A DNA stretch of 64,000 bases. Origin: Weissella confusa (GTDB lineage Bacteria; Bacillota; Bacilli; Lactobacillales; Lactobacillaceae). This document shows, piece after piece, positions 16,911-52,368 of the stretch. Made by a program: the position numbers and the translations under genes. Location: the NCBI GenBank assembly GCA_001436895.1, contig JQAY01000004.1, forward strand, positions 1 to 64,000. Direction: 5' to 3'. Position 1 is the stretch's first letter. Each line of letters starts with the position of its first letter. The notes below the pieces were generated by a model. The model saw nothing but the letters and a program-made list of their open reading frames with translations. It was not told where the DNA came from and searched no databases.

Positions 16911-17639
16911 CTACACAAACGGCACAATTTCTTCACGATTGGTCAACTTTGCACCAGCTGCCTCATCGATAATAACTGTGACATTTGCATGCTTTTGCAA
17001 GATACTTGCAGGCATGTCTTCCGTAACTGGTCCTTCGATCATCGCTGCCACAGCATCAGCCTTCGCTGCCCCGTAAGCAACCAACAAAATTTCCTTAGCC
17101 TTCATGATGCTACCGATTCCCATTGAGTAGGCGTAGCGAGGCACTTCGTCTTCGTGCTCAAAGAAACGCGCATTTGCTTCGATTGTTGACTCAGTTAGCG
17201 TCACTTCGTGCGTCAAAGAATCGAATGGCGTACCAGGCTCGTTGAACCCGATGTGACCGTTTTGACCCAATCCCAAGATTTGTAGATCGATTGGGTTTGC
17301 GTCAATGATACCTTCGTAACGCTTCGTCTCAGTTTCAGCATCCGCCATACCGTCAGGGACATAACTCTCCTTGAATGGCTTAGCATTGAACAAGTGCTCG
17401 TTCATGAAGTAACGGTAGCTTTGCTCGTGCGTACCAGGCAAGCCCTTGTACTCATCCAAGTTGATTGAAATCTTATCAGAGAAGTCCAAGTCGCTAGCCT
17501 TCAACTCATCATAAATTGAGATTGGCGTTGAACCAGTTGCCAATCCAAAAAAGTGTGCGCCATTCTTAACAGCCTCTGCAAAGACATCGTATCCTGCGCG
17601 GCCACCAGCTTGTTGATCTTTAACTTGTAGAATCTTCAT
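16911..17639 (-). CDS. nagB: Glucosamine-6-phosphate deaminase
   Basis: 242 residues, the size of Gram-positive NagB lacking the allosteric C-terminal extension. Visible: [15 protein letters not shown] substrate loop, [10 protein letters not shown] with the catalytic Asp, and [17 protein letters not shown] with the active-site His and Asn/Glu. Converts GlcN6P to F6P and ammonia. Stand-alone unit preceded by a strong promoter overlapped by NagR-like operators, so it is likely induced by amino sugars. AAGGGG lies before the start. Confidence 0.95.
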
Positions 17640-17683: not shown

Positions 17684-17724
17684 TGGTATAGACCAATTAT
17701 AGACCAATTCCTATACCAATTCAA
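17684..17724 (-). promoter_or_regulatory. nagB promoter with NagR/YvoA-type (dre) operators
   Basis: Minus-strand -35 TTGAAT (17719-17724), 17-nt spacer, perfect -10 TATAAT (17696-17701). Overlapping it are a complete palindromic TGGTCTATACCA (17684-17695) and, in the spacer, a second site made of TGGTATAG and TTGGTCTATA halves. TGGTCTAGACCA-like sites are bound by GntR/HutC repressors NagR/YvoA and released by glucosamine-6-P or GlcNAc-6-P. No nagR gene is in the window. Confidence 0.85.
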
Positions 17725-17769
17725 CTCAGAAAGTCATTTTTATGTTTGAGAATTTGTTTTCCGGTGGAT

Positions 17770-18010
17770 GTAAATCCGTGTCAGACTAGAACATCTCGGC
17801 TGCTGTGGCTGGGGGCGCCCCACGTATAGAACCGGACATGGCTAAACCTGTGGGGGTAATACTTAGGGGTTTTACCCCTTAGTATTACGGAGGGTAAAGG
17901 TGTACGCTGCAACGCAGTGGACTCCGCCTCCCACGGTTTTGACATGTCCGGTTTAGTGGGCCAAAAGAAGCCCCCAGCCACTCCGACCAGAGGTCGGACA
18001 CTCGCACAAA
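17770..18010. other. Highly structured non-coding element, unclassified
   Basis: About 240 bp with nested complementary arms. 17805-17816 GTGGCTGGGGGC pairs perfectly with 17970-17981. 17831-17840 ACCGGACATG pairs with 17943-17952. AAACC/GTGGG (from 17844) pairs with 17930-17939. Inside are two more hairpins: GTAATACT with AGTATTAC (17856-17888), and CTGC with GCAG (about 17907-17915). The result is a rod ending in a three-way junction. A further CCGACC/GGTCGG hairpin lies at 17983-17997. It is more G+C-rich than its surroundings. An 80-codon minus-strand reading frame covers it, but its composition (Trp, Cys, Pro, His-rich) and lack of a ribosome site argue against a protein. Could be an RNA gene or a dispersed repeat; strand unknown. 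Confidence 0.6.
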
Positions 18011-18026
18011 CTACACACCACAAACT

Positions 18027-18070
18027 AAAAGACCTGATGTCAGGAATTCCCCTAACATCAGGTCTTTAAT
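18027..18070 (-). terminator. Terminator after thrS (bidirectional)
   Basis: AAGACCTGATGT/ACATCAGGTCTT stem with a 13-nt loop and A/T runs on both sides. Confidence 0.9.
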
Positions 18071-18079
18071 CGTTAATTA

Positions 18080-20079: not shown

Positions 20080-20340
20080 TGCGTGCGACTTGACGCGCGA
20101 AAAACAAAAACGTCCCGTTACAACAATTATACTTGTCGTAACGGGACGTTTGCACGCGGTACCACCCGAATTCGAGAGGGTTCCCCCTCACCTCATCGTC
20201 CCTTAACGCGGGAAACGGAACTGGTTCACCAGTTCGCTTGGAAGTAGTACCGTTCAACGACCGTTATTTGCCTCCCACCAATGGCAAACTCTCTAAAAAC
20301 AATCTTGTTCAACGACTTATCTTCGTCAACGCTTTATTCT
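20080..20340 (-). promoter_or_regulatory. T-box leader (riboswitch) of thrS
   Basis: The minus strand carries the T-box core GGGTGGTACCGCGTG (20153-20167), which pairs with uncharged tRNA NCCA ends. It is followed by a terminator hairpin ACGTCCCGTTACG with its complement and a T run (20105-20151). Upstream are the Stem I/II/III region and a -10 TATAAT at 20346-20351. A likely specifier is ACT in GGTACTACTTCC, fitting threonine. Uncharged tRNA-Thr would favour the antiterminator and switch thrS on. Confidence 0.92.
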
Positions 20341-52079: not shown

Positions 52080-52324
52080 ATAAAAAACGCCCTGACCATA
52101 CAATAACTGTATGATCAGGGCGACTTAATCGCGGTACCACCTGATTTAACGGGACTTCTCCCGCTATCTCGTTAGAACTTAACGCGTTTCTCACGTTACC
52201 GACTACTACAATTTCACCGGCAAGGCCCACTAACTACCTTCAGTCAAGAATTTCGATGCGCTTTTCACCAACCGCGCACTCGCTGCACAATCCTCATTGA
52301 CTTACTTTTTAGTGCATTGCTATA
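52080..52324 (-). promoter_or_regulatory. T-box leader (riboswitch) of valS
   Basis: T-box core AGGTGGTACCGCGATT (52127-52142 on minus) followed by a terminator with CGCCCTGA.CATAC stem and its complement plus six Ts (52083-52122). Antiterminator and stem regions extend back to a promoter with -35 TTGATT (52354-52359), 17-nt spacer and -10 TACAAT (52331-52336). GTA or GTC within TTGTAGTAGTCGG is a candidate valine specifier. Confidence 0.93.
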
Positions 52325-52368
52325 AACGTAATTGTACGGTTATTTGCTTTGAAAATCAAGGTGAAAGA

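Follow-up and report, generated by a model that had tools for sequence, protein, structure and literature searches.

A one-armed paired-rod element between nagB and thrS of Weissella confusa and its dispersed family of putatively mobile DNA

The attC sites of integrons are DNA hairpins whose sequence varies while their structure is kept, and they act as folded single strands. REPs are described as repeats of 20-40 bp carrying a GTAG or CGTC tag, and REPINs are described together with RAYT (Y1) transposases (PMC3116915; PMC3733652). For REP dimers, a preference for unlike halves is reported with 'no obvious explanation' (PMC3733652). The repeat bcr1, of about 150-170 bp, is presented as a clade-restricted dispersed repeat with conserved secondary structure (PMC2267715), and a title cited in that paper attributes mobile element characteristics to it.

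The element considered here lies in a stretch of 64,000 nucleotides of Weissella confusa DNA (the window). An earlier note on this DNA had suggested that it might be a structured RNA of a new kind or else a DNA element present in many copies and confined to Weissella. Its comparison with other copies points to an undescribed family of mobile DNA, here called paired-rod elements, rather than to a new RNA. On balance, the window element is probably a one-armed deletion derivative of such a non-autonomous mobile DNA element. No report of repeats of this kind in Weissella was found in the open-licence papers searched.

Structure and distribution of the family

The highly paired element that had been noticed between nagB and thrS is real and occupies positions 17752-18012 (Table 1). 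Its + strand folds, as had been proposed, into nested arms forming a rod that ends in a three-way junction (-125.3 kcal/mol against a mean of -94 for shuffled sequences; z -6.48; 0/100 shuffles as good). The fold of the - strand is also better than all shuffles (z -6.02). Three arms were recovered by the inverted-repeat search: one of 12 bp (17805-17816 with 17970-17981, 100%), one of 19 bp (17830-17848 with 17935-17953, 89%) and the apical one of 15 bp (17856-17870 with 17874-17888, 93%). The rod is of type A, with a covariance-model match of 184 bits. The predicted CCGACC/GGTCGG hairpin was found as well; it occupies the position of a separate end hairpin, whose sequence varies across family copies. 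The TCGG near 17796, proposed as a competing partner for part of this hairpin, corresponds to the stretch CTCGGCTGCTG, which in folded full copies is mainly paired to the opposite core half, a half that is missing from the window copy. The window copy also lacks the central palindrome that goes with this left core half, and its terminal repeat does not match the exact end pattern used in the genome scans. The 80-codon frame over the element, already suspected to be spurious, has no Pfam match and a coding reading was rejected. On the reverse strand, thrS is preceded by a T-box leader (20139-20338) that exceeds the Rfam cut-off; a further T-box leader above the cut-off lies elsewhere in the window (52113-52326, reverse strand).

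Table 1. Coordinates in the window of the parts of the element and of its neighbours
Feature	Position	Strand	Basis or remark
nagB	16911-17639	reverse	
Promoter-like site upstream of nagB (context, outside the element)	17696..17724	-	consensus match only
Core hairpin, right half (GGTGGATG...CTCGGCTGCT)	17752..17804	+	segment (query 13-66) recurs in many copies
Type A rod (12-bp outer helix, further helices inside it, three-way junction with two apical hairpins)	17805..17981	+	fold, inverted repeats
First apical hairpin of the junction	17856..17888	+	inverted repeat I4, 15 nt, 93%
Second apical hairpin (CGCTGC AAC GCAGTG)	17905..17919	+	fold; covaries in the rod alignment
End hairpin TCCGACC-AGA-GGTCGGA	17982..17998	+	fold; other copies carry different hairpins there
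Terminal inverted repeat, diverged (+ strand reads GACACTCGCACAAACT; consensus of the family GTGGTNNGTGTC)	17997..18012	-	comparison with other copies
thrS terminator (context, outside the element)	18028..18067	-	terminator prediction

The assertion that the element resembles none of 6S, tmRNA, SRP or RNase P RNA is borne out by its scores, which lie below every Rfam family cut-off. At gathering score only two T-boxes and one tRNA were recognised in the window. A relaxed search gave a single sub-threshold match at the element (best 24.6 bits against a cut-off of 44) and three matches at five other family loci, all sub-threshold. A plasmid or phage origin was considered through blastn searches with one full element and one rod of another genus, which gave no match. 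Five exact-pattern scans of viral contigs returned 0, 0, 0, 0 and 2 matches; the two matches share only 17-18 nt with rod C and were taken as chance.

The organisation of full copies was deduced from 126 stretches analysed by blast with rod queries, 85 of which had a rod match; several dozen were inspected by eye. A full copy is free of genes and about 515-600 bp long (515-596 bp in the fifteen measured). At each end lies a terminal repeat GTGGTNNGTGTC, followed inward by an end hairpin; between the two end hairpins, a core hairpin separates two different rods that face opposite ways. The two rods, each of about 175-210 nt, point outward around the core hairpin, which often contains a palindrome like GGTGAACTGTTCACC. 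The rods fall into type A and its homologue B, type C, type D and its homologue D2, and E with E2. Types A and B share conserved unpaired motifs in their internal loops, and a CGGAG/CGGAG internal loop, recognised by eye, is common to C, D and E. In L096 (582-665) and L097 (399-482) a nearly identical insert with small hairpins is found in one A2 and one B1 rod at the same internal loop; modules therefore move inside rods too. When six copies were folded as single strands, two (L097, L075) closed as a star with all arms separate, two (L063, L246) kept the rods apart with a partial closing stem, and in two (L031, L101) parts of the two halves paired with each other.

Some loci depart from this plan. 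Units of 38 bp consisting only of two terminal repeats and one hairpin occur in two genomes (L199, L200). One locus of the window's own genome (L062 840-1500) has small open frames between its B rod and the core, two of whose peptides have no Pfam match; at that site G014 has a gene-free copy with two rods. In G014, four contig ends (L209, L210, L214, L215) fall inside B rods at one common inserted sequence, which occurs only in that genome among 28 and is perhaps an insertion sequence using the rod as target.

A blast of window positions 17740-18075 against 60 genomes gave 11 matches in the own genome and further matches in five other Weissella genomes; in a seventh genome, from another family of the order, a 27-nt match covered the thrS terminator part only. 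With two full elements as queries, the carriers numbered 6/28 Weissella genomes, and these searches did not detect the family in the other 22/28. Copies differ by roughly 10-20% in blast. In three genomes the exact end pattern was matched 22, 43 and 22 times (reversed control 4, 4 and 3), and 38-bp units made of ends only are among the matches. In the named collection an exact 19-nt end pattern hit 23 stretches, of which 22 belong to Weissella confusa DSM 20196, VTT E-062653 and FS54. The remaining stretch (L141), which matches the end hairpin exactly, comes from a metagenome bin labelled Actinomycetales, and chance or misbinning may account for it.

Rods of similar shape were also encountered outside Weissella. 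Under strict filters, a search of 395 genomes of the order with a covariance model built from A and B rods found 6 places in the window genome and, at 2.5e-4 per genome, a match in one genome of another genus; about 0.1 such matches are expected by chance over the whole search. A blast with this stretch gave matches in 4/15 genomes of that genus; nine of the matching places lie in G428, a genome with a listed contamination of 8%. Five of these places fold as rods, and the four that were read further have a second rod nearby. The consensus fold of ten such stretches is poor, several being truncated or unlike outside the apex. This suggests that paired-rod units are a wider kind, with possible homologues in another genus of the family. 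Of the two descriptions offered in the earlier note, that of a multi-copy DNA element is upheld by the many dispersed copies in 6/28 genomes; specificity to Weissella holds for close sequence similarity in the searches, but not for the rods of like shape.

Base pairing in the rods

The earlier note had proposed a covariance test, with a lack of compensating changes, together with no transcript, as evidence against an RNA. Compensating double changes were found at 30/57 consensus pairs in 47 homologous A and B rods, the alignments being restricted to near-complete rods. In this set 97.8% of cells pair (83.4% in shuffles), 358 cells show changes on both sides (115 in shuffles) and the covariation score is 0.418 against 0.161, with 0/500 shuffles as high. 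Slid structures reach only 35-44% pairing. The number of further pair types, 58 against 60.7 in shuffles, is not above chance. Compensating changes are abundant, yet nearly balanced between the strands, which speaks against an RNA made from one strand.

This balance was seen in the wobble pairs. Among pairs predicted on both strands, 58 cells of 4692 are G.U and 37 are A.C; the G.U/A.C counts for types A to E are 6/4, 17/18, 22/4, 8/5 and 5/6. Selection on RNA should favour G.U strongly, and the near-balance therefore fits pairing that matters in DNA, type C being the exception. Most pairs in the rods are common to both strands (51/63, 59/63, 66/68, 70/80 and 63/73). When each strand is given its own structure, G.U cells sum to 296 in the core-to-end direction and 204 on the other strand. 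RNase P, taken as a control for strand balance, has only 5/32 pairs common to the strands, which makes an equivalent count impossible. RNA folding is better in the core-to-end direction for 66/77 rods; RNase P reaches 18/28 in the same test, so the energy difference between strands does not discriminate. Of the 47 cores, 3 have a promoter-like site on one strand and 1 on the other, against a shuffled mean of 5.3, i.e. no excess. In types A, B and C the variability of paired columns equals or exceeds that of unpaired ones, and in type D it is lower; the outer helices of C and D keep their pairing despite being very variable. Watson-Crick pairing on both strands together with the lack of a promoter excess is therefore better accommodated by a non-autonomous DNA element than by an RNA gene, and strong covariation alone is no proof of RNA.

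Rod exchange, placement and candidate movers

Loci were grouped by their outer flanks, the first cluster merging several sites. Comparison of relatives at orthologous sites reveals unlike rods, inverted rods and rod losses. Where the window copy lies, rod A stands alone in the window genome, while the site is occupied by B2 and A in G003, by a D remnant and B2 in G027, by B2 in G014 and by D and C in G004; rod type or order also differs among relatives at other sites (clusters 11, 12, 14, 15 and 23). Relative to G003 (L101), the window copy is missing half of the core, rod B2, and the end hairpin and terminal repeat on the left, and its deletion junction with the nagB flank lies near 17750-17752. 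Aligned with this relative, which keeps the lost rod, the window element appears to be the surviving arm of a two-armed element. Another orthologous pair (L031 and L102) has 19/902 differences in the flanks and 2/176 in rod A, with B rods of different subtypes (45/171), and is best read as a single-rod replacement. In a further pair (L074 and L105) the flanks differ at 19/904 positions, the B2 rods at 18/176 and the C rods at 9/186. The window rod is identical to its G003 orthologue (L001/L101, 0/177, flanks 28/916), the rods of L064 and L115 are also identical (0/177), and those of L075 and L104 differ at 1/177 and 1/210 positions; in these three pairs the rods change no faster than the flanks.

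The combination of rods in a copy follows a rule. The 47 two-rod copies, in which orthologous copies are counted apart and six have a partial rod (L065, L091-L094, L197), comprise A+B (13), B+C (13), B+D (7), D+E (5), D+D2 (4), B+E (2), C+D (2) and A+D (1). None carries the same type twice, whereas random dealing of the rods gives a mean of 10.6 such copies and at least 3 in each of 2000 trials. The result is the same for copies with both rods at least 80% complete (0/41; dealing mean 8.9). When A is merged with B and D with D2, 17/47 copies carry two rods of one superfamily, D and D2 differing at 72-74/206 positions. The rule therefore concerns unlike sequence and not unlike ancestry: what two-rod copies avoid is near-identity of the rods. 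Two equal rods would form a long perfect palindrome, which cells would presumably not tolerate. Loss of sbcD as a cause of palindrome persistence was rejected, with a match in 28/28 genomes, 21 of them above the cut-off and including all six carriers.

Five sites were compared for emptiness. The site of L097 is cleanly empty in four relatives, G004 having an unlike outer left flank, and the four other sites show remnants or altered flanks. Many dispersed copies with target duplications had been named beforehand as the mark of a repeat or MITE; the dispersed copies are there, but the only cleanly empty site shows no visible target duplication. In 33/41 loci (32/41 under a stricter energy cut) a terminator-like site directed towards the locus lies within 40 nt, against 28.5% and, under the stricter cut, 18.8% of positions in intergenic gaps of at least 100 nt, a baseline drawn from the 64-kb window alone. 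The 41 loci include sites counted in more than one genome, and 3/44 loci with short flanks were dropped. Such placement may reflect target choice or tolerance.

None of the mobilising enzymes searched, Y1 transposase and reverse transcriptase, fits the family. Y1_Tnp occurs in 3/28 genomes and is missing from the carriers G003, G004, G014 and G027, and no family ends lie beside three of the Y1 genes (L144-L146). Reverse transcriptase occurs in 3/28 genomes, none of them a carrier. No transposase was seen between family ends in the stretches retrieved by the exact-pattern scan from three genomes.

Interpretation and comparison with known systems

In the favoured reading as mobile DNA, the spread of copies would involve the folded single DNA strand of the unit, in some copies a closed star whose five arms stand on a terminal stem, being recognised by a recombinase or transposase. 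Recombination between copies through the core half and the end that they have in common could later swap single rods; breaks at extruded hairpins might set this off, sbcD being present. Several observations run counter to the reading as mobile DNA: neither of the enzymes searched fits the family; no target duplication is visible at the one site that is cleanly empty; there was no recent burst, copies standing roughly 10-20% apart; 66/77 rods fold better as RNA core-to-end, and G.U outweighs A.C in type C; some orthologous rods change no faster, or slower, than their flanks; and the star is the predicted fold of only some of the six copies.

Three other explanations were weighed. Each rod could be the gene of a structured non-coding RNA, transcribed outward from the core and acting in trans or as a decoy, so that the element would be a dispersed pair of RNA genes. 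The strong covariation, the unpaired motifs conserved between types A and B, the better folding of the core-to-end strand and the surplus of G.U on that strand and in type C all speak for it. It is nevertheless unlikely, given the near-balance of G.U and A.C in types A, B, D and E, the scarcity of promoter-like sites in the cores, the absence of any Rfam family above gathering score at the element and the position of most loci beyond terminators. That same position by terminator-like sites would suit a structural DNA serving the host at gene ends (an insulator, a replication-fork or a chromosome-folding site) that is under selection and whose mobility is over. Sites common to several relatives and the identity of the window rod with that of G003 despite the differences in their flanks agree with such a role, and a constraint by host function would also fit those orthologous rods that change no faster, or slower, than their flanks. 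We consider this reading quite improbable in view of the frequent deletion remnants at common sites, the free exchange of unlike rods and the 22/28 Weissella genomes in which the family was not detected.

Mutation bias on its own might also maintain the pairing, if template switching at replication kept the arms of old inverted repeats equal without any selection or active mobilisation. The variability of paired columns in types A, B and C, the very variable yet paired outer helices of C and D and the many deletion remnants are in its favour. It would leave aside the internal-loop motifs that stay unpaired and conserved between A and B, the exchange of whole rods between sites, the recurrence of the end sequences and the lower variability of paired columns in type D, and we regard it as very improbable.

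The favoured reading of the window element as a derivative of mobile DNA can be widened, tentatively and with more doubt than belief, to mobile DNA of a new class within this lactic acid bacterial family: modular units of two interchangeable, unlike, junction-bearing rods would be mobilised and re-assorted as folded single-stranded DNA by a structure-reading enzyme, with related units in at least one other genus. If true, bacteria would hold large elements without genes, their parts shuffled in the manner of cassettes and their identity residing in shape more than in sequence. They would offer a natural test bed for the survival of long inverted repeats in sbcD-bearing cells, for the enzymes that read folded DNA and for the reason why paired hairpins are unlike, a question left unexplained for REP dimers in the account cited (PMC3733652).

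Paired-rod elements share with attC sites a variable sequence with a kept hairpin structure and differ from them in having no cassette genes and no array that could be seen. Like MITEs, they are non-autonomous and intergenic and have terminal inverted repeats (GTGGTNNGTGTC at both ends); in contrast to MITEs, they have complex, exchangeable rods as arms. As to further features of MITEs, no target duplication was visible at the one clean empty site, and no matching transposase turned up among the enzymes and stretches searched. With REPINs, as these are described in the sources cited, they have in common dispersed, gene-free inverted pairs of hairpins able to fold as one strand and a preference for unlike halves, and the inverted doublet forming a larger hairpin has its counterpart in the two outward rods around a core in 47 copies. 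Their rods of about 175-210 nt with GTGGTNNGTGTC ends are unlike the short tagged monomers of REPs, although some end hairpins of the family contain CGTC as part of a varying stem, and a RAYT flanked by repeats has no equivalent, Y1 being missing from four of six carriers. The comparison with bcr1 was made by description only: both are dispersed, clade-restricted repeats that conserve their secondary structure, and the two-rod exchangeable plan is absent from the description of bcr1 consulted. In kind, REPINs and bcr1 are the nearest relatives of the paired-rod elements.
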